Shown here piece by piece: positions 8,763 to 43,389 of a DNA stretch of 43,389 bases. Every line of letters begins with the position of its first letter. Positions within the stretch are counted from its first letter, which is position 1. Both the position numbers and the translations under genes were made by a program. This DNA comes from Candidatus Moranbacteria bacterium RIFOXYA12_FULL_35_19. GTDB taxonomy: Bacteria; Patescibacteriota; Minisyncoccia; Moranbacterales; UBA2206. The stretch spans positions 1 to 43,389 of the forward strand of contig MFSE01000012.1 of NCBI GenBank assembly GCA_001784805.1. The letters are read 5' to 3'. Below the pieces are notes generated by a model, which saw only the letters and a program-made list of their open reading frames with translations, was not told the DNA's origin and did not search any database.

Positions 8763-8851
8763 TTTACGAACTACGAAATAAATACTAAATACGAAAGTAC
8801 GAAAAAATTAGCCTCATCATTTCGTATTTCGCTCATTTCGTAGTTCGTAAA
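8763..8851. repeat. ACGAA-type palindrome (89 bp)
   Basis: Arms of 17 bp at 8763-8779 and 8835-8851 are perfect inverted copies (TTTACGAACTACGAAAT and its complement), with further ACGAAA/TTTCGTA words between. The same family appears at 21849-21971, 22670-22749 and as a single arm at 37533-37565. Confidence 0.75.
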
Positions 8852-9792: not shown

Positions 9793-10308
9793 ATGAAAAT
9801 GCAAAAAAGTAAAATTCTATATTTATTATCCTTTCTGGTCTTAATTATTCTTGATCAACTTTCAAAATATATCGTCCGCTCCAGTGGCGGATTTTATATT
9901 TGCAACGCCAATCTTGCTTTTGGATTAAAAGTACCTCCTGCTGTTTTTTATGTTTTATGGATAATAATTATTCTTTCTTTGATAACTTTTATTGCCAAAA
10001 GTAATTTGAAAATAGTAACTAGCCCGCCTGCCGGCGAGGCAGGTATTTTGGATAAAAATTCTAGCATTTCCCTAATTACAAATTACAAATTACTAATTAC
10101 AAAGGAATTTTCTCTACTTTTGATTTTTTCTGGTGCAATTTCCAATATTATCGATCGTTTATTTTTCGGTTGCGTCATTGATTTCATCGATCTCAAATTC
10201 TGGCCGGTGTTTAATTTAGCCGATATTTATATTACAATAGGAGTAGTCATATCAATAATCAGAACCACTGATTTTCACATGAAATCACATGATTCCACTG
10301 AATTTTAA
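9793..10308 (+). CDS. lspA: Lipoprotein signal peptidase (signal peptidase II)
   Basis: This membrane aspartic protease cuts lipoprotein signal peptides. The sequence shows LDQLSKYIV and NANLAFGL in the N-terminal part and both catalytic Asp motifs, GAISNIIDRLFFG and FNLADIYITIG, with four membrane helices. Residues about 77-105 (SPPAGEAGILDKNS and ITNYKLLITK) interrupt the loop between helices 2 and 3 and are encoded by repeat DNA: a CCTGCC palindrome (10023-10044) and an ATTACAAATTAC repeat. The last 15 residues (RTTDFHMKSHDSTEF) are encoded by another repeat (10260-10350). Function should persist since the catalytic core is intact. Confidence 0.93.
   Translation: MKMQKSKILYLLSFLVLIILDQLSKYIVRSSGGFYICNANLAFGLKVPPAVFYVLWIIIILSLITFIAKSNLKIVTSPPAGEAGILDKNSSISLITNYKLLITKEFSLLLIFSGAISNIIDRLFFGCVIDFIDLKFWPVFNLADIYITIGVVISIIRTTDFHMKSHDSTEF
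10023..10044. repeat. CCTGCC/GGCAGG palindrome inside lspA
   Basis: CCTGCC-GGCGA-GGCAGG, a 6-5-6 hairpin in an otherwise AT-rich gene. Copies or near copies at 13134-13154, 34235-34255, 35110-35131 and 37614-37634. Confidence 0.8.
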
Positions 10309-10350
10309 TTCATGTGTAATCAGGATAATCAGTGCAAATCAGTGGTTCAG
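10260..10350. repeat. CAGAACCACTG palindromic element, copy 1 (91 bp)
   Basis: CAGAACCACTG and CAGTGGTTCAG form the ends; the interior is an imperfect palindrome with CACATGA and TCATGTG words and a central CTGAATTTTAATTCA. It supplies the lspA stop codon and lies seven bases before the comM start. Copies 2 and 3 are at 21351-21442 and 24598-24695. Confidence 0.85.
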
Positions 10351-10356
10351 ACATCT

Positions 10357-12926: not shown

Positions 12927-13796
12927 ATGCCAACAAAATTAGGACAAAATTTTTTACGCGATAAAGAAGTTTTGGAAAAAATAATTGAATCAGCTGATTT
13001 AAAAGCGGACGATTTTGTGATTGAGATTGGACCGGGAGAAGGAGTGCTCACAGAAAAATTAATTGAAAATGCTGGAAAAGTCTTGGCTATTGAGATTGAT
13101 TCTAATTTAGCCTCTGCACTAGATTCCCGCTTTCCTGCCTCACCGGCAGGCGGGCGCGGGAATGACAAGGTTAGTATAATTACTGGGGATATCTTAAAAA
13201 TAAATTTGCCAGAAATATTGCGTGGACATTTGATGTCCATTATGGACATCAAATGTCCCTATGCTTATAAAGTCGTGGCTAACATTCCCTACTACATCAC
13301 TTCGCCGATTATTCAACTATTTTTGGAAACAAAATTTCCGCCAAGTGAAATGATTTTGATGGTGCAAAAAGAAGTGGCCGAGCGGATTTGTGCACCCCAA
13401 GGAAAAATGAGCATTTTGGCTGTGAGCGTGCAATTTTATGCTAATTCAGAACTTCTTTTTTATGTGGACAAAAAAAGTTTTTTTCCGATACCGGAAGTGG
13501 ATAGTGCAGTGATAAAAATTACACCGTTTCAACCCGCCACCTCATCCCCAGCCCTTCTCCTTAGTAAGGAGAAGGGGGTTAAGGATTTTTTCAGAATTGT
13601 TAAGGCGGGATTTTCGGCTAAAAGAAAAATACTGGTCAACAATCTTTCCCATAGTTTAAAGCTCGAAAAATATGAAGTTGAGGAAAAATTAAAAAAAGCC
13701 GGAATTGGTCCGACTCAAAGAGCGCAAGAATTGTCAGTTGAAGATTGGAAGAAACTCTCTTTGTCATTCCCGCACAAGCGGGAATCTAGTGAATAA
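12927..13796 (+). CDS. rsmA: 16S rRNA (adenine1518-N6/adenine1519-N6)-dimethyltransferase
   Basis: KsgA/RsmA dimethylates two adenines of the 3' hairpin of 16S rRNA late in 30S assembly. Motifs: LGQNFLRDKEVLEKI, SAM-binding VIEIGPGEGVLTEKL, acidic IEIDSNLAS, and the catalytic NIPYYITSPI, then the C-terminal helical domain with FSAKRKILVNNLS. Four stretches are encoded by palindromic DNA: residues about 65-81 (13118-13168), 100-111 (13224-13258), 205-220 (13540-13584) and the last 11 residues (from 13761). All keep the frame and avoid the motifs, so the enzyme is probably active. It converges on the UbiA-type gene. Confidence 0.95.
   Translation: MPTKLGQNFLRDKEVLEKIIESADLKADDFVIEIGPGEGVLTEKLIENAGKVLAIEIDSNLASALDSRFPASPAGGRGNDKVSIITGDILKINLPEILRGHLMSIMDIKCPYAYKVVANIPYYITSPIIQLFLETKFPPSEMILMVQKEVAERICAPQGKMSILAVSVQFYANSELLFYVDKKSFFPIPEVDSAVIKITPFQPATSSPALLLSKEKGVKDFFRIVKAGFSAKRKILVNNLSHSLKLEKYEVEEKLKKAGIGPTQRAQELSVEDWKKLSLSFPHKRESSE
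13118..13168. repeat. Half ATTCCCG element with a nested CCTGCC palindrome, in ksgA
   Basis: ACTAGATTCCCGC at 13118-13130 and CGCGGGAATGACAA at 13155-13168 are the two arms of the repeat seen whole at 13761-13870, and CCTGCCTCACCGGCAGG at 13134-13150 sits between them. One repeat seems to have landed in another within a coding region without breaking the frame. Confidence 0.75.
13224..13258. repeat. 35-bp double-hairpin palindrome in ksgA
   Basis: Built as GGACA-TTTGA-TGTCC, spacer ATTAT, GGACA-TCAAA-TGTCC: each arm is itself a hairpin and the two loops are complementary. It encodes GHLMSIMDIKCP in the loop after the SAM site. Confidence 0.85.
13540..13584. repeat. CCCTTCTCCTT palindrome in ksgA
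   Basis: CCCTTCTCCTT (13552-13562) and AAGGAGAAGGG (13566-13576) pair perfectly; flanking CCTCATCCCC and GGGGTTAAGG extend the stem with two mismatches. It encodes the extra TSSPALLLSKEKGVK before the conserved C-terminal helices. Confidence 0.8.
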
Positions 13797-13870
13797 GCTT
13801 TATAAAATGTTTGAGTCTTTGTAATAAATTAAACCTTGAAACTGGATTCCCGTTTTCACGGGAATGACAA
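13761..13870. repeat. TTGTCATTCC element, empty 110-bp form
   Basis: Left arm TTGTCATTCCCGC...GCGGGAATCTAGT (13761-13790), right arm ACTGGATTCCCG...CGGGAATGACAA (13841-13870), each a hairpin, with the outer ends complementary. The 50-bp middle has no gene. It supplies the C-terminus of ksgA and lies between the convergent ksgA and UbiA-type genes. Same architecture as 17797-18155. Confidence 0.85.
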
Positions 13871-13875
13871 AAATA

Positions 13876-15552: not shown

Positions 15553-15587
15553 GGAGGCTCAACCTCCATTATGGAGGTTGAGCCTCC
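15553..15587. repeat. 35-bp double-hairpin palindrome (GGAGG type), intergenic
   Basis: GGAGG-CTCAA-CCTCC, spacer ATTAT, GGAGG-TTGAG-CCTCC. The same sequence, with one or two changes, lies inside trxB at 42940-42974, and one arm is at 31664-31678. Confidence 0.9.
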
Positions 15588-20249: not shown

Positions 20250-21362
20250 ATGCCAAAAATATTATTTTCTGAATTAAATACAAATTTGCAAAAAAATCTA
20301 TGCACAATTCCATACGGTGTTTTTTCAACTAAAAATCCTGACGATGAAACTAGCACACAAGTCATAGAAAGACAAGAAAAATTTTTAAAATTATCAGAAC
20401 CAATAAAGGACAAACTTGTTTCTAATGAAACCTCAAAAAAAATTCAAGAAATTGGCAGAATGTATAATTTAGAACTTCTGCAATTAGCTGATATTTCACG
20501 GGCTATTCGCAGTTTCTATTTTGGTGAAATTCAACTACAAGATTTTCCGCAAATATTATCGAGAGAAATGAATATTGATTTTGCTACAGCGCAAAAAATA
20601 TCTCAAGAAGTCATTCAAAAAATAATCAACGATGATTCTCAAGAGAAAGCCTACCAATCCCAGCTGGAAAAATTGACGCTTTCCAGCGCCATTCAAAAAT
20701 TCCCTGCTCTTGGCGAACAATTGATTACTTCGGCGAAAATTAAGCTGAAAAATTTTCCAGAACCAGTCCGGCCATCGATCAATAATTGGCTTTCCGATTA
20801 TACTTTTAGTCTTGGCTATGAGTCGCATAGCGCGATGGATCGTGGAACATATCTTTTTAGAAATGAAAATGCCCGACTGCTAAATTCCATGGATCGCGAA
20901 AAATTATCCTATCTTTTGAAAGCTTATGATGAAAATTCACCCGTGGACATCAACACCAACACCAGCCAAATAATTTTCCCGCACCATGAAACAAGGAACA
21001 ATGGACAAGGAACAATGAACAATATTCAAAGAACAATAAACAATGAACAACGAACAACGAACAATAATAATTCTGTTTTATCGCAACCAAAATCTCCCTT
21101 TCAGGAAATATATAATGCCAAACCACAAGCAACTCAATCCAAAGATATTTTCGAAGAAGAAAGAACGGCTACCCAAAAAAGAAACACCGCCAATTTGAGT
21201 TTCAGTTCTCCGCAAAAATTTCCTTATGAAAAACAAGCTATCCGCCAACCAGAAGAAAATTCCAACCAAAATTTTCCACCCCTACGAATCTCCTCCCAAA
21301 ACCTCCGCCACGACCCCGTCCCACCGGGAAATGTAGTCAATTTAAAAGATCAGAACCACTGA
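20250..21362 (+). CDS. Hypothetical protein of the secretion locus
   Basis: A 370-residue soluble protein, no signal peptide or membrane helix, helical in the first 230 residues (EKFLKLSEPIKDKLVSNETSKKIQEIG and so on) and low-complexity after about 240. Residues 246-270 (THETRNNGQGTMNN...) are encoded by a GAACAATG-type minisatellite (20985-21068), and the last four (DQNH) by a CAGAACCACTG element. It begins eight bases after the VirB6-like gene and lies before PrgI. Function unknown; conservation only of position is visible. Confidence 0.7.
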   Translation: MPKILFSELNTNLQKNLCTIPYGVFSTKNPDDETSTQVIERQEKFLKLSEPIKDKLVSNETSKKIQEIGRMYNLELLQLADISRAIRSFYFGEIQLQDFPQILSREMNIDFATAQKISQEVIQKIINDDSQEKAYQSQLEKLTLSSAIQKFPALGEQLITSAKIKLKNFPEPVRPSINNWLSDYTFSLGYESHSAMDRGTYLFRNENARLLNSMDREKLSYLLKAYDENSPVDINTNTSQIIFPHHETRNNGQGTMNNIQRTINNEQRTTNNNNSVLSQPKSPFQEIYNAKPQATQSKDIFEEERTATQKRNTANLSFSSPQKFPYEKQAIRQPEENSNQNFPPLRISSQNLRHDPVPPGNVVNLKDQNH

Positions 21363-21442
21363 TTAACACATGATTATACTGATTACACTGAATTTTAATT
21401 CAAGTGTAATCAAGTGTTAATCAGTGAAAACCAGTGGTTCAG
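21351..21442. repeat. CAGAACCACTG palindromic element, copy 2 (92 bp)
   Basis: Ends CAGAACCACTG and CAGTGGTTCAG. It covers the stop codon of the upstream gene and stops six bases before the PrgI start, so it fills the whole spacer. Confidence 0.85.
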
Positions 21443-21448
21443 AATTAT

Positions 21449-21847
21449 ATGCTGTTCAATGTCCCACAATTCATCGACATCGAGGATAAGATTGTCGGCC
21501 CGCTCACAGCCAAGCAACTTGGCTGGTTAGGTATTGCCGGCGTTTTGCTTTTGATTTTTTGGAGCACGCTCACTTTTTCCACTTTCCTTCCACTGGCTTT
21601 CATCACACTAGGAATTTTTGGCGCGTTGGCATTCTACCGACCGTACAACCAACCCCTTTTGAATTTTTTGATGTCAGGCGTAAATTTTTTTCTAAAACCC
21701 AAGATGTATGTTTGGAAGCGATATTATGATAGTATGAAAGCAACCAACAAAACCCCTGCCAAAACAACCGAAGAAATTATTGTCAAAAGAAAAGTTTTAG
21801 ATAACAAAAAATTAGAAGAATTAGCAAAGAGACTCAATCAAAAATAG
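21449..21847 (+). CDS. PrgI family protein (VirB3-like)
   Basis: Residues 5-22 (VPQFIDIEDKIVGPLTAKQ) match the start of PrgI, the small membrane protein of Gram-positive-type conjugation and secretion machines that partners VirB4. Two membrane helices follow (about 22-44 and 45-65), then YRPYNQPLLNFLMSGVNFFLKPKMYVWKRYYD, also typical. The gene starts at ATG 21449, right after the repeat element. The adjacent genes encode the TraC-like and VirB4 proteins, in the usual order. Confidence 0.88.
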   Translation: MLFNVPQFIDIEDKIVGPLTAKQLGWLGIAGVLLLIFWSTLTFSTFLPLAFITLGIFGALAFYRPYNQPLLNFLMSGVNFFLKPKMYVWKRYYDSMKATNKTPAKTTEEIIVKRKVLDNKKLEELAKRLNQK

Positions 21848-21848
21848 G

Positions 21849-21971
21849 CTTTACTAAATACGAAATAAGCTAAATACTAAAAAATCCTTTCGTATTTCGT
21901 TTATTTCGTATTTAGTAAAACTTAGTATTTAGTAAAATTTAGTATTTCGTTTATTTCGTATTTAGTAAAAC
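21849..21971. repeat. TTTAGTA/ACGAAAT repeat tract
   Basis: Repeats of TTTCGTATTTAGTAAAA and TTAGTATTT, in both orientations, fill the space between PrgI and the TraC-like gene. Same words as at 8763-8851. Confidence 0.65.
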
Positions 21972-22665: not shown

Positions 22666-22669
22666 AATT

Positions 22670-22749
22670 CCTTACGAATTACGAATTGGTACGAATGTAC
22701 GAAATAAAAAACATATTCGTACATTCGTAAATGTTCGTAATTCGTAAGG
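22670..22749. repeat. ACGAA-type palindrome (80 bp) between the split VirB4 genes
   Basis: CCTTACGAATTACGAA (22670-22685) and TTCGTAATTCGTAAGG (22734-22749) are perfect inverted copies, with further inverted TACGAATGTACGAA words inside. It starts five bases after the stop of the TraC-like gene and ends eight bases before the VirB4 ATG. Confidence 0.85.
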
Positions 22750-22757
22750 ACTAACCT

Positions 22758-25227: not shown

Positions 25228-25293
25228 TTGTCATTCCCGCCCGCTTCGCCAAAGTTTCAGCGAGGCGAGCGAACGCGGACACAGGAATGGCAA
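25228..25293. repeat. Decayed TTGTCATTCC element
   Basis: TTGTCATTCCCGC at 25228-25240 and GGAATGGCAA near 25285-25293, with a GC-rich CGCTTCGCC/GGCGAGCG middle. It resembles the other elements but has lost clean symmetry. Confidence 0.5.
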
Positions 25294-25303
25294 TAACAAA
25301 TAT

Positions 25304-25392
25304 AGGACTTCCGCGTTTGCAGACACTGGATGTCTTTCGGCTGTTACGGTCGCGAGACATCCAGTGTCTAAAACAGCAACCGCGTAAGTCCT
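25304..25392. repeat. Nested palindrome with a double-hairpin core (89 bp)
   Basis: Outer AGGACTT (25304-25310) and AAGTCCT (25386-25392). Inside, AGACA-CTGGA-TGTCT (25321-25335) and AGACA-TCCAG-TGTCT (25355-25369) are hairpins with complementary loops, separated by 19 bp. It recalls the 35-bp elements but with a longer spacer, inside another palindrome. Confidence 0.85.
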
Positions 25393-31686: not shown

Positions 31687-32865
31687 TTAGTTTTTTAACG
31701 CCAGAAAATTCAACCAAAAAATAATCGCCAGATCATTTTTGAAATAAGTCGTATCAAAAATTCCGTGAAGTAAAATAATCAGCATAATTCCTAAAGTTAT
31801 AAACAGAATTTCATTCGATTCTGTTTTTATTTTTACAAAAATATCCTTTAACCAAAAAAATACCAAACCCAAAAAACCAACCACGCCCAAAATTCCGCCA
31901 GAAAGCCAGAAAGTTAAATATAAATTATTTGGGTGTGGCACTGCCCATTCCAAATAAGGTGGGTAAAATTTCTGGTATTCCAAATAAGTTTTTTGGAAAT
32001 TTCCTGGACCAATACCAAAGATAAGATTATTTTCCAACATTTTTACTGAAGCTTTCCAAATCATCATTCGAGAAGATAAAGAAGATCGGGAATCAGCTGA
32101 TAATAAATCCGTCATTTTTTTGTTATTTAATTGGGATAAAAAAAGCATCCCAATAATAATCATCGCTAGCGCGATTTTTTTCAACTCAATTTTATTTTTT
32201 ATTAAGCTTAAAATTATACAACTCACTACCACAGAAAACCATCCCGCATAAGAATAAGTCAGATAAAAAGCGCCTAAAATAATTATCCAGCCAAAACCTA
32301 TGGTGTAATTTTTATTTTTTTCCACTTTAATTTGTTCTAGCGCAATGATAACCGCCGGCGCCAAATACATCGCCAGATAATTTGGCGAATTAAATATGCC
32401 GGCCAAACGACCGTCGTAAGTTAAAAAGCCTAGCCCATAATATCCTAGTGAAACAATAGCCACGCCAACTGCCGAAAAAAAATAAACCAAAAAAATATTC
32501 TTTATTTTTTCTTTGGGAATTATTTCCCCAACAAGAAAAAGAAAAATAATTGGCACTAAAAACCAGCCTTTTATTATTCCCCAAGATACTGTACTGTTGC
32601 CGGAAAAAAAAGTAGCCATTAAAATTCCCATAAACATTAGACTTGCCATTCCAAAATATTTTACGAAACCAAGGTTGAACCTTTGGTTAGCCAAAGGTTC
32701 AACCTTAGGATCCTTGTTGGAAAAAAACCACAGTAAAAAAATCCCCGCGATTATTATTTCCCAAGCATTGGTTGGTAAAAAACCAATTTTTATTCTGACT
32801 AAATACAGTGGAATGAGAAATATCGCTAAGTAAATTAGATTTTCTAATATTTTCCTATTTTTCAT
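31687..32865 (-). CDS. O-antigen ligase/polymerase-like membrane protein
   Basis: About 11 membrane helices. The characteristic late loop (MLENNLIFGIGPGNFQKTYLEYQKFYPP, then AVPHPNNLYLTFWLSGGILGVVGFLG) matches the WaaL/Wzy ligase family, which joins or polymerises glycans at the outer face of the membrane. Residues about 54-65 (KVEPLANQRFNL) in the first cytoplasmic loop are encoded by a palindrome. I use ATG at 32863-32865 (MKNRKILEN); it overlaps the end of the upstream ligase by 11 bp, so the two are likely co-translated. Confidence 0.85.
   Translation of the reverse strand: MKNRKILENLIYLAIFLIPLYLVRIKIGFLPTNAWEIIIAGIFLLWFFSNKDPKVEPLANQRFNLGFVKYFGMASLMFMGILMATFFSGNSTVSWGIIKGWFLVPIIFLFLVGEIIPKEKIKNIFLVYFFSAVGVAIVSLGYYGLGFLTYDGRLAGIFNSPNYLAMYLAPAVIIALEQIKVEKNKNYTIGFGWIIILGAFYLTYSYAGWFSVVVSCIILSLIKNKIELKKIALAMIIIGMLFLSQLNNKKMTDLLSADSRSSLSSRMMIWKASVKMLENNLIFGIGPGNFQKTYLEYQKFYPPYLEWAVPHPNNLYLTFWLSGGILGVVGFLGLVFFWLKDIFVKIKTESNEILFITLGIMLIILLHGIFDTTYFKNDLAIIFWLNFLALKN
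32671..32706. repeat. AAGGTTGAACC double-hairpin palindrome in the ligase gene
   Basis: AAGGTTGAACCTTTGG (32671-32686) and CCAAAGGTTCAACCTT (32691-32706) are inverted copies around TTAG. Each arm is again a small hairpin with TTGAA/TTCAA loops. In frame with the gene. Confidence 0.85.
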
Positions 32866-34105
32866 ATCTGGGATATAAATTAATAACAACAAGAAACAAT
32901 GACAGCACAATAGGGGAACACAGGCCGGTTTCCACTAATGAGTGAACGGAAAAAATAATCAAGCTCACAAAAAATCCGCTATAGATCATATCCTTTTTTG
33001 AAAAAATCCAAAAATTCCAAAGCGTTAGAAGCAAAATAAAAATCCAAACCAAACTGGTCATAATCCCTTCTTCAACCGCGATATCCAAATAAGTATTATG
33101 GGCATAAATTGGATTTCGATAATTTATCTTATCATCCACTTCCAAAGAAAAATTACCGATACCCGTTCCAAAAAAGGGTTTTTCTAAAATTATTTCTAAG
33201 GACTTTTGCCACATTTCAAGCCGTCCTATATTTGATCCTTCCGCTGAATCAAAACTGGAAACAAATCTCTGTGAAATTGGACCGGGTACAGTAAACATCA
33301 AAATAAAAAATATCATTCCGAAAAAAGTCGCCACTCTATGTTTCCACGCCATTCTTTTATAAAAAATAAGCAAAAAAATTGCCGATCCTAATGCGATTGC
33401 CACATACCCGCCTCGCGAGAAAGTCAAAATATTAGCGAAAAAAATAGCTACGAAAGAAAATACCCAGAGAAATTTTTCTTTCGAAATAAAAAACAAAATT
33501 ATCGGAAGCGGAAATATTATTCCTAAAAACATTGAGAAGGAATGCGGATTAGGAAAAGTTGCAATCGAGCGAAAATAATTATCTCCGGAAATACCCACAA
33601 ACAAACTGGGATATTTGGCTACCATTTGTGCTAAATTATCTCCCCAAAAAATCGGCCCAGCAAAATTCAAATAAAAATTCAAAATCTCTTCATGACTCCA
33701 AAAAAATTGACCAAGAAATTGTACAATTCCCAAAACCGCCACCAGAGCGCCTGATAAAACTAGGACTTTTAGCGTTTTTATAACTTTCTCTCTATCATTT
33801 AGAATATCTTTTACCACAAAATACAAGGGGAAAATAGAAAACAAATAGAGCAATTTCCTTGCTCCCCAAATATAATTTTGAGCAAAAAACAATGAAATAA
33901 AACTCAAAAAAAGAAAAAGAAGGATAGCCTTTGCCTGCACATCAAAAATTAATTTTTCTTTATTTTTTATCTTATTATAAATCCAGATAAAAAATAAGAC
34001 TAGAATAAAAATTCTTAGCGAAGCCAAATCAACCACCGCCGCCGGATTAAGCGCGATTTGAAATGGCAGATAAAAACATAAGAATAGAAATAAATTAAAT
34101 ATCAT
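32855..34105 (-). CDS. O-antigen ligase/polymerase-like membrane protein (second)
   Basis: Similar topology (about 11 helices) and the same loop motif: LEKPFFGTGIGNFSLEVDDKINYRNPIYAHNTYLDIAVEEGIMTSLVWI. Two such proteins side by side could serve polymerisation and ligation separately; the sequence cannot say which is which. It ends inside the following ligase gene's start. A 171-bp hairpin element lies directly upstream. Confidence 0.85.
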   Translation of the reverse strand: MIFNLFLFLCFYLPFQIALNPAAVVDLASLRIFILVLFFIWIYNKIKNKEKLIFDVQAKAILLFLFLSFISLFFAQNYIWGARKLLYLFSIFPLYFVVKDILNDREKVIKTLKVLVLSGALVAVLGIVQFLGQFFWSHEEILNFYLNFAGPIFWGDNLAQMVAKYPSLFVGISGDNYFRSIATFPNPHSFSMFLGIIFPLPIILFFISKEKFLWVFSFVAIFFANILTFSRGGYVAIALGSAIFLLIFYKRMAWKHRVATFFGMIFFILMFTVPGPISQRFVSSFDSAEGSNIGRLEMWQKSLEIILEKPFFGTGIGNFSLEVDDKINYRNPIYAHNTYLDIAVEEGIMTSLVWIFILLLTLWNFWIFSKKDMIYSGFFVSLIIFSVHSLVETGLCSPIVLSLFLVVINLYPRYEK

Positions 34106-35060: not shown

Positions 35061-35073
35061 AATCTATTAAATT

Positions 35074-35243
35074 CCTGAAGAATTAAAATTTTTGAAAAAT
35101 TATTGTCTGACCTGCCTCGCCGGCAGGCGGGGAAATTCAAATTTTATCCAAAAATTTCCATTGGTAGCCGTTGATTGAGGGAAATTTTTGGTTATAAAAT
35201 TTAGAATTTGAGTTCAATTTTGAAAAAATTTTAATTCTTTAGG
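35074..35243. repeat. Large hairpin element with GCCGTTGAT core, copy 2 (170 bp)
   Basis: CCTGAAGAATT and AATTCTTTAGG at the ends; AAGAATTAAAATTTTT (35078-35093) is perfectly inverted at 35224-35239. The apex has GCCGTTGATTGAGGG (35167-35181). The GC-rich palindrome is in the left arm (35110-35131). It lies between two GT2 genes, 13 bases before the downstream start. Confidence 0.88.
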
Positions 35244-35246
35244 AAC

Positions 35247-36104
35247 TCAAATTATATTCTTAAAATCTTGATACGCTCTACCCACTGCTTCGTTCAGAGC
35301 TGTTTTTTCGCACCTTCTCTCTTTCCAGTTTTTAATTTTTCTTAACTTGATATACAAAAATATCCACGGTTTCAAAAATAAAGGAGAATTTTTTTTGAAA
35401 AAAATCAACCCAGAAAGCACCAGCCAATAAATTTTACTGGCTTTTTTTTCTTGGCTTTTTTCGTAGTGACGAATTCGACTGGAAGCGCAAACTGCCAATT
35501 TATAGCCAGCTTTTTTGGCCCGCAAAGAAAAGTCGGCGTCTTCCCAATATAAAAAATAATCTTCATCAAAAAGTCCTGCTCGCCGAAAAACTTCCGCCCG
35601 AATAAGCATTGCGCATCCGGAAATATAATCCGTATTGAAATTATTTTTTTGAAGTTCCTTTTCTTGATGCTGGCTTTTCATTTTGAGCCAATTAATTTCT
35701 CCTCCAGAAAACCAAATTTTTCCACTGTCTCCCGCTAAAATCACTGGACTAATTATTCCGATTTTTTCTTCCTTTTCCATTTCTTCCACTAAAAAATCCA
35801 AAGAATTTTTTTCAATTTCCGTATCATAATTTAAAAGCCAAATATAATCCGCTCCACGCTCAAGCGCATATTCAATTCCAATATTATTACCAGAAGAAAA
35901 GCCTAAGTTCTCACTATTTTTTATTAAGATTATTTTAGAAAATTCCCGTTTAATCATTTCAAAAGATCCATCGATGGAATTATTATCCACCAGAATCACT
36001 TCAAAATTAGGATAATCCATTCGAAAAACACTAACCAGCGCTTTTTTCAAACAAGCCCGCCCATTATAATTTAGGATTATCACAAAAACCTTAGGCTGAT
36101 CCAT
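35247..36104 (-). CDS. Family 2 glycosyltransferase (second)
   Basis: Same fold and motifs: KVFVIILNYNGRACLKKALVS, EVILVDNNSIDGS, NLGFSSGNNIGIE, DYIWLLNYDTEIE and FDEDYFLYWEDADFSLRAKKAGYK. Residue after the ED pair and the RHYEKSQ helix fit rhamnosyltransferase-like members. A C-terminal basic/hydrophobic tail may touch the membrane. It is eight bases from the flippase gene, in one unit. Confidence 0.93.
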   Translation of the reverse strand: MDQPKVFVIILNYNGRACLKKALVSVFRMDYPNFEVILVDNNSIDGSFEMIKREFSKIILIKNSENLGFSSGNNIGIEYALERGADYIWLLNYDTEIEKNSLDFLVEEMEKEEKIGIISPVILAGDSGKIWFSGGEINWLKMKSQHQEKELQKNNFNTDYISGCAMLIRAEVFRRAGLFDEDYFLYWEDADFSLRAKKAGYKLAVCASSRIRHYEKSQEKKASKIYWLVLSGLIFFKKNSPLFLKPWIFLYIKLRKIKNWKERRCEKTALNEAVGRAYQDFKNII

Positions 36105-37579: not shown

Positions 37580-37741
37580 TTAAAGAATTATCTTTTTGAG
37601 AAATTTCTGTTTGACCTGCCTGCCGGCAGGCAGGGAACCCAAAAATTATCTAAAATTTTCCTACGACCGCCGTTGATTGAGGGAAAATTTTAGTAATAAT
37701 TTTTAGGGTTCGAGTTAATTTCGAAAAAAATAATTCTTTAA
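37580..37741. repeat. Large hairpin element with GCCGTTGAT core, copy 3 (162 bp)
   Basis: TTAAAGAATTA and TAATTCTTTAA at the ends, long paired arms (for example TAAAATTTTCC with GGGAAAATTTTA), apex GCCGTTGATTGAGGG (37669-37683), GC-rich palindrome in the left arm (37614-37634). Between jag and the flippase gene, about 50 bp before the flippase start; the remaining gap at 37533-37565 holds one arm of an ACGAA-type palindrome. Confidence 0.88.
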
Positions 37742-37747
37742 TAAATT

Positions 37748-38236
37748 TTAAACCAAATCGACTGGCTTGATTACCACCCTTCGGTCTTCTCCTTCACCAG
37801 TGCTTTCTGTTTTGATTTGTTTATTCTTTGCTAACTCCATATGAACAAGTCTTCTTTCATACGGCGACATTGGACGAAGTGTTACTGCTCGCTTCTCTTC
37901 TAATGATTGCTTAACTGCATTTTTCGCTAAAATCAAAACAGATTCATTTTTTTCCTGCCGATAAGAATTGACATCCAGCAAAAAATTTATTTTGTTCTCG
38001 ATTTTTTGACGAAAAATTATTCTAGCAATATGTTGCAAAGCTTGAAGATTGACTCCATATTGACCGATCAGAAAATTGGAATCTTTGGTTTGGATGTTGA
38101 AAATCAGATCAGTTTGCTCTTCTGTTTTGACTTCTTCCGGTTCAACTTGACATTCAATTCCCATTTTTTCAACTAATTCTTCCACCGTTTTTTTAATTTT
38201 TTCCTTTGTCTCTTCATTTATTGTTTCATTTTCCAT
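37748..38236 (-). CDS. jag: Jag/KhpB family RNA-binding protein (KH and R3H domains)
   Basis: 162 residues. After a short N-terminal helix, a KH-like domain (about 45-95, NFLIGQYGVNLQALQHIARIIF) and a C-terminal R3H domain (about 96-155, NSYRQEKNESVLILAKNAVKQ ... MSPYERRLVHMEL with the R-x-x-x-H signature) appear. KhpB binds RNA with KhpA and affects cell division in Gram-positives. It follows yidC, its usual neighbour. Confidence 0.93.
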   Translation of the reverse strand: MENETINEETKEKIKKTVEELVEKMGIECQVEPEEVKTEEQTDLIFNIQTKDSNFLIGQYGVNLQALQHIARIIFRQKIENKINFLLDVNSYRQEKNESVLILAKNAVKQSLEEKRAVTLRPMSPYERRLVHMELAKNKQIKTESTGEGEDRRVVIKPVDLV

Positions 38237-42660: not shown

Positions 42661-43389
42661 ATGAAACATGAAACAAAAGAAATAATACACGATTTAATAA
42701 TTATTGGCGCGGGGCCGGCGGGGCTTAGTGCTTCGATTTATGCTTCACGGTATGGGATAAAACATAAAGTTGTTGGGGCGGTTTTGGGTGGGCAAATTAG
42801 TGAGACACATAAAATTGACAATTATCCTGGAATGGAGGATATGAGTGGATATGAATTTGGACAGCGTTGGGGGAAGCACGCCAAAAAATATGGAGTGGAA
42901 ATTATTCCGCAACTAGTTCAAAAAATTAAAAAAGAAAATGGAGGTTCAACCTCCATTATGGAGGTTGAGCCTCCATTTTTTGAAGTAGAATTAGCGAATA
43001 AAAATATTTTACAAGCACGAACAATTCTTTTAGCCACTGGAACAAAAAAAAGAAAACTCAATATTATTGGAGAAAAAGAATTTATTGGAAAGGGTGTGTC
43101 ATATTGTGCTACTTGTGATGGATTTTTTTATAAAAATAAAACTGTGGGTGTGATTGGGGGATCGGATAGTGCAGCGACTGCCACATTATACTTGGCTGAT
43201 TTAGCAGAAAAAGTTTATCTAATTTATCGCAAAAAAGAACTGCGCGCCGAACCTTTTTGGGTAAACTTAATTGAAAAAAATCCAAAAATAGAAGTATTAT
43301 ATGAAACAAATGTGGTGGAAATTTTAGGTGAGCAAAAATTGGAAAAAGTAAAACTCGATAAAGCTTATAATAATTCCAACGAATTAAAT
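42661..43389 (+). CDS. trxB: Thioredoxin reductase (TrxB), 3' end beyond the window
   Basis: An open frame from ATG 42661 to the end (243 residues seen). FAD site LIIIGAGPAGLSASIYASRYG, redox motif CATCDG and the NADPH site VIGGSDSAATATLYLA are clear. The enzyme passes electrons from NADPH to thioredoxin. Residues 94-105 (GGSTSIMEVEPP) are encoded by a 35-bp palindrome in the FAD domain, ahead of the active site. The upstream 20 bp have ACATAAAACATGAAAC repeats. The alternative start at 42670 would not change the picture. Confidence 0.93.
   Translation, partial: MKHETKEIIHDLIIIGAGPAGLSASIYASRYGIKHKVVGAVLGGQISETHKIDNYPGMEDMSGYEFGQRWGKHAKKYGVEIIPQLVQKIKKENGGSTSIMEVEPPFFEVELANKNILQARTILLATGTKKRKLNIIGEKEFIGKGVSYCATCDGFFYKNKTVGVIGGSDSAATATLYLADLAEKVYLIYRKKELRAEPFWVNLIEKNPKIEVLYETNVVEILGEQKLEKVKLDKAYNNSNELN
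42940..42974. repeat. 35-bp double-hairpin palindrome (GGAGG type) inside trxB
   Basis: GGAGG-TTCAA-CCTCC, spacer ATTAT, GGAGG-TTGAG-CCTCC. Nearly the same sequence as the intergenic copy at 15553-15587, so the same element is found both between genes and inside a conserved gene. Confidence 0.92.

Follow-up and report, generated by a model that had tools for sequence, protein, structure and literature searches.

The stretch analysed here, hereafter the window, comprises 43,389 nucleotides (nt) of Candidatus Moranbacteria bacterium RIFOXYA12_FULL_35_19, an ultra-small member of the Patescibacteria (contig MFSE01000012.1 of assembly GCA_001784805.1, positions 1–43,389 of the forward strand), of which open reading frames (ORFs) cover ~86%. 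Five places in it carry short double hairpins, all of which could be re-read as an earlier note on this DNA had described them. The first (13224..13258, plus strand) reads GGACATTTGATGTCC attat GGACATCAAATGTCC, exactly, and lies in frame in ksgA/rsmA, encoding the 16S rRNA adenine dimethyltransferase (12927..13796, plus strand; TIGR00755, 235 bits versus a cut-off of 171); the protein runs ..EILR-GHLMSIMDIKCP-YAYK.. at this point, and in the region of the insert its PDB homologues are shorter. The second (15553..15587, plus strand) reads GGAGGCTCAACCTCC attat GGAGGTTGAGCCTCC, again exactly, and sits between divergently oriented ORFs. The third (42940..42974, plus strand) follows the same 35-bp plan with one T:G mismatch in the loop and is in frame in the thioredoxin-disulfide reductase gene trxB (..KKEN-GGSTSIMEVEPP-FFEVE..), a partial gene in the window because the window end cuts its 3′ end (42676..43389, plus strand; TIGR01292, E 1.8e-71). 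On the minus strand, the fourth (32671..32706) reads AAGGTTGAACCTTTGG ttag CCAAAGGTTCAACCTT and is in frame in an ORF for a Wzy_C/O-antigen-ligase-like membrane protein (31690..32934, minus strand; PF04932, 71 bits versus a cut-off of 31.7). In the fifth (25321..25369), AGACACTGGATGTCT and AGACATCCAGTGTCT form 15-nt hairpin arms that flank a conserved centre of 19 nt.

Repetitive extragenic palindromes (REPs) are, as their name says, known as extragenic repeats. The elements described here are REP doublets akin to REPINs, in which a 15-nt hairpin precedes an inverted copy of itself. The proposal that a building plan rather than a sequence is conserved holds, given that the GGACA family (13224), the GGAGG family (15553 and 42940) and the AAGGTT family (32671) realise one plan with different arms. 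The complementary loops, by comparison, are a consequence of this plan and not additional evidence: since the first half recurs in the second as its reverse complement, an asymmetric loop must meet its complement there. Of the two places that had been read as variants of the plan, 32671 is one, whereas 25321 shares the outer plan and is a different repeat; a single common family for all five places was rejected on account of its own conserved centre.

The repeats are real. A search for the plan (stem 5, loop 3–7, spacer up to 30, at most one mismatch) in 376,286 bases of sampled stretches of this genome returned 24 double hairpins, five of them inside the window, as opposed to a mean of 0.1 and a maximum of 1 in 30 dinucleotide shuffles, which bears out the expectation of more instances than chance would give. 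Pattern searches across the whole genome (988,700 bases) found 13 GGACA, six AAGGTT and eight GGAGG doublets, and reversed control patterns had no match in the same bases.

What sets the families apart appears to be the transposase with which each is paired. Five Y1_Tnp genes are present in the genome, four of which encode proteins resembling REP-associated tyrosine transposases (RAYTs; 223–248 amino acids, PF01797 over its cut-off), each gene with a different palindrome. The RAYT gene on contig C10, cognate to the 13224 element, holds one GGACA doublet in frame within the ORF and a second right after the stop codon, and the one on contig C6, cognate to the 32671 element, holds an AAGGTT doublet within the gene and none in its flanks. 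The remaining two, on contigs C23 and C5, have single palindromes that differ in sequence from these, both within the gene and to either side of it; downstream of the C23 gene, a half-palindrome, GATGTCCAAGTATA, is found in tandem (L021 1984–2010). Among 38 aligned RAYT sequences, the HuH motif is invariant, as is Y150, which, from the alignment and general knowledge of the family, we take to be the catalytic tyrosine. A sequence search found no relatives of the RAYT in the PDB.

The same pairing recurs gene by gene in relatives. In 54 RAYT genes from other Moranbacteria and further Paceibacteria, the internal palindrome matches the gene's own flanks over 19.1 nt versus 7.8 nt in the flanks of other genes, a value not reached in any of 10,000 permutations. 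For 100 RAYT genes of Patescibacteria with an internal palindrome (98 distinct palindromes), the figures are 20.3 and 7.9 nt, again with 0/10,000 permutations as high. The own flanks are strictly the best match in only 59 of these 100, as related families have cores in common. At least one internal palindrome matching the own flanks by at least 13 nt occurs in 87 of 115 distinct RAYT genes, a few of these being A+T-rich chance matches. The genes are thus flanked by their own REP family, with one RAYT per REP type, and carry their own palindrome in frame. Of the 104 internal palindromes placed against the motifs, 73 precede HuH, at 15–30 codons from it, 31 follow the conserved tyrosine and none falls between the two.

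Were a RAYT to move its family, one would expect dispersed copies in the genomes that have this RAYT, and these genomes do have the most. GGACA doublets number 13 in this genome (G000) and seven in G002, the two genomes with a GGACA RAYT, besides strays with one mismatch each in G003 (one), G021 (two) and G025 (two), and none in 48 other genomes. Likewise, AAGGTT doublets are found six times here and three times in G016, the two genomes with an AAGGTT RAYT, with two strays in G004 (two mismatches) and none in 50 others. GGAGG copies are the same kind of element and fit this co-distribution less well.

The dispersed GGACA and AAGGTT copies reside mostly in genes, and there they keep the frame. 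Twelve of the 13 GGACA and all six AAGGTT copies are in frame within ORFs, their hosts being rlmN, prmC, ksgA, hypE, uvrA, rnhB, a FemAB-like gene, murE, dnaG, tsaD, pgk, valS, murB, cysS, the O-antigen-ligase-like gene, a tmk-like gene and two RAYT genes; most were named by curated models, the FemAB-like and tmk-like genes by our own reading, neither having an NCBIfam match at 1e-20. Only two of the eight GGAGG copies, those in elp3 and trxB, are in frame. In DnaG, the peptide predicted to be encoded by the insert includes WTSNVHNGHLMS. With ~86% of the window in ORFs, the in-gene fraction is what unselected insertion would produce, provided that insertion in frame is harmless.

Sites in relatives are empty or filled differently. 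The pgk element is missing from six of six congener sequences, which are 36 nt shorter, and the trxB site is empty in six of six congeners with a net difference of 33 nt. The sites in ksgA, uvrA and valS have been used repeatedly and hold other palindromes in congeners; uvrA of G002, for instance, has GTAGAGACGAGGCATGCCTCGTCTCTAC at the same site. In the one clean case, with 36 nt added, the extra peptide is, as far as the sequence tells, tolerated.

Taken together, these observations suggest that the double hairpins are REPIN-like elements and that the RAYT of each family is most likely what copies and inserts its members, a reading to which we assign a probability of about 0.87. The RAYT would act as a HuH/Y1 single-strand DNA transposase that recognises a hairpin, and it is this recognition that would make the pairs specific. 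A short palindrome (the REP) and its inverted copy around a spacer of 3–5 nt would then be mobilised family by family. Most GGACA and AAGGTT doublets, the two families for which the RAYT is intact, now lie in frame in conserved genes and would have arrived there in this way. Since each family pairs with its own RAYT, families keep the plan but not the sequence.

Several points weigh against this explanation. Transposition itself was not observed, mobility being read from sequence comparison. The NCBIfam model REP_Tyr_transpos (NF047646) scores 31.5 bits against a cut-off of 80 for one RAYT and has no match in the other RAYT tested. Unlike canonical REPs, the 27 doublets have no conserved GT[AG]G foot beside them, and GT[AG]G is near the 5′ end of only four of 101 internal RAYT palindromes. 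With 6–13 copies per family, the numbers fall far short of the >100 that REPs usually reach. Moreover, this genome, with its eight GGAGG copies, yielded no intact RAYT for that family, the C10 RAYT containing only the degenerate GGAGG-type GGAGGCTCAACCTCT, and G051, a genome of the same order with 31 GGAGG copies, has as its sole RAYT match a fragment at a contig end, the last bases of which are GTGGAGGCTCAACCACCA. In other genomes, GGAGG-type palindromes do occur with intact RAYTs (L094, L229). For the AGACA family, too, no cognate RAYT was found in this genome; as the assembly is in 32 contigs, a RAYT not found may sit in a gap.

The alternative that survives best, improbable as we consider it, is that these are palindromic elements of the Rickettsia type, i.e. 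selfish in-frame insertions spread by another mechanism, for which RAYT loci are merely one more target and the association with RAYTs is secondary. In-frame insertions into housekeeping genes and the reuse of the same sites by different palindromes do resemble Rickettsia palindromic elements and in-gene REPs (PMC3733652). Yet the palindrome matches its RAYT gene by gene across 100 genes, a one-to-one pairing that random targeting would not give, and most dispersed copies are in genomes with the matching RAYT.

Even less likely is selection on shape, by which the double hairpins, as RNA or DNA, would have a function of their own with kissing loops, e.g. in regulation or as signals that stop transcription. 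The earlier note had left the choice between such selection and a mechanism that yields a hairpin and its complement; the latter stands, in the form of a REP and its inverted copy. Complementary loops, the intergenic location of 15553 and 25321 and the covariation of the arms all speak for shape. This covariation, which the note had proposed looking for, is present: an alignment of 20 GGACA copies from five genomes has 21 two-sided cells versus 6.4 when shuffled (0/500), with three base pairs altered on both sides. The arms change together; as the copies are related, this says nothing on the number of independent changes. However, folding as single-stranded DNA predicts one hairpin of 16–17 bp with a 3–4 nt loop for each of 13224, 15553, 42940 and 32671 and one long interrupted hairpin for 25321 (z scores of the five between −7 and −9), and comparison of the window with Rfam gave no family at gathering score. 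Furthermore, most GGACA and AAGGTT copies are mid-gene and in frame in genes unrelated to one another, sister species lack copies at orthologous sites such as those in pgk and trxB, and the arm sequences follow whichever transposase is present. The kissing double hairpin was rejected, a single long hairpin being predicted and different cognate transposases explaining the different arms.

It is scarcely credible that hairpin-templated correction (quasi-palindrome mutation) keeps the palindromes perfect with no mobile element involved: near-perfect arm identity and paired loop changes would fit, as in the orthologous ksgA element of G002, which is the same one except that its two loops read TTCGA/TCGAA in place of TTTGA/TCAAA, but multi-copy families of dispersed, near-identical copies, presence or absence at orthologous sites and the tie to RAYTs are left unexplained. 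Such correction may act on top of mobility.

Returning to elements that are probably moved by their own RAYTs, comparison of RAYT genes with one another offers a hint as to how such pairs could change. Among 147 RAYT genes, we considered pairs with ends (the N-terminal and C-terminal parts) at least 78% identical and set these against the middle, from HuH to FQG. Where both genes have the same internal palindrome (six pairs), identity is 0.867 in the middle and 0.866 in the ends; where the palindromes differ (12 pairs), it is 0.717 versus 0.865, the middle being lower in 12 of 12. The two groups do not overlap in this contrast, although the pairs are not independent and, by our grouping, represent four clusters versus three (P = 0.029 for perfect separation); the contrast had also been noticed before the larger set was used to test it. 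It is sharpest in the RAYT gene that precedes ligA in both G000 and G004 (L020, L077): ~205 nt at the start are nearly identical, the following ~285 nt, including the internal palindrome and HuH, are replaced, and ~240 nt are then nearly identical again, with the 3′ palindrome slot occupied by each gene's own palindrome. Such sharp edges favour replacement rather than gradual change. At a different locus, the RAYTs of five congeners each have a palindrome of their own and lie downstream of homologous DNA (74–85% over ~850 nt). We infer that the HuH region may be exchanged together with the internal palindrome, the two forming a single cassette. More broadly, we put forward as a tentative model, to which we give somewhat less than even odds, that in Patescibacteria the RAYT gene contains, in frame next to HuH, the palindrome targeted by its product, as part of an exchangeable specificity cassette. 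A swap of the middle would change the palindrome that is recognised and the slots inside and beside the gene would be refilled, with recogniser and target changing together while the ends stay.

The window and the sampled stretches contain further repeats. Copies of the 49-bp repeat at 25321–25369 were also found in L022 (6232), L025 (13881), L033 (16525) and L040 (18651), making at least five in all, with the 19-nt centre, TTCGGCTGTTACGGTCGCG, conserved in the five copies found save for one base in one of them; two copies have an extra outer inverted pair, AGGACTTNCGCG/CGCGTAAGTCCT. No transposase or cognate RAYT was found for this repeat. Another palindromic repeat (ATTCCCGC...GCGGGAATGAC; CTGCCGGCGAGGCAG, with eight copies in the sample) is present at 13124–13170, 13760–13871 and 25230–25260, and hence also within ksgA, mid-gene and at the 3′ end. 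On the minus strand, the intergenic stretches 35070–35260 and 37580–37760, upstream of different genes and with no Rfam match, have a common layout in which a hairpin with CCCTCAATCAACGGC stands beside a palindrome with CTGCCGGC. Intergenic inverted repeats of TTCGTA/TACGAA units are found at 8763–8851, 21840–21969 and 22669–22750, and inverted pairs of a repeat with ATCAGTGGTTCTGAT cores (four copies in the sample) at 10259–10351 and 21350–21443.

Small mobile elements can apparently spread through the protein-coding DNA of compact genomes by inserting with no frameshift, adding ~12 residues to DnaG, UvrA, Pgk and other proteins. By what route a transposase comes to target another hairpin in evolution is an open question, and a reduced bacterial lineage offers dozens of natural transposase–target pairs for it, with the target written within the transposase gene, which should make the recognition code readable by comparison.

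Three known systems invite comparison. REPINs are pairs of REPs that form hairpins (Bertels and Rainey 2011, PMC3116915), and PMC8266576 gives a further account of the same kind of system. Like REPINs and bacterial interspersed mosaic elements, the elements described here consist of a short palindrome in two inverted copies separated by a spacer, in several families per genome, each near one RAYT. Unlike them, they are not predominantly extragenic, 18 of 19 GGACA and AAGGTT copies being coding and in frame, and they have 6–13 copies per family, no GTAG foot and a spacer of only 3–5 nt. In RAYT/TnpA_REP subclass 2.4 (RAYT group 4), Y1/HuH genes are likewise flanked by their own REPs, with further REPs in frame inside the tnpA_REP genes (Quentin et al. 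2018, PMC6006769); here, by contrast, the internal REP is outside the HuH–tyrosine interval (73/31/0) and appears to change together with the HuH region. Finally, Rickettsia palindromic elements and the in-gene REPs of Opitutus and Rickettsia (reviewed in PMC3733652) resemble our elements in their mode of insertion, in frame in host genes for housekeeping or repair, including uvrA, whereas the palindromes described here pair one-to-one with RAYT genes. We found no publication treating RAYTs in Patescibacteria or the candidate phyla radiation in substance, most subscription journals being outside the search. REPINs, RAYT–REP pairing and in-frame REPs in transposase and host genes have thus been described before; new here are the lineage, the internal REP outside the HuH–tyrosine interval, the mostly in-gene location and a possible exchange of cassettes.
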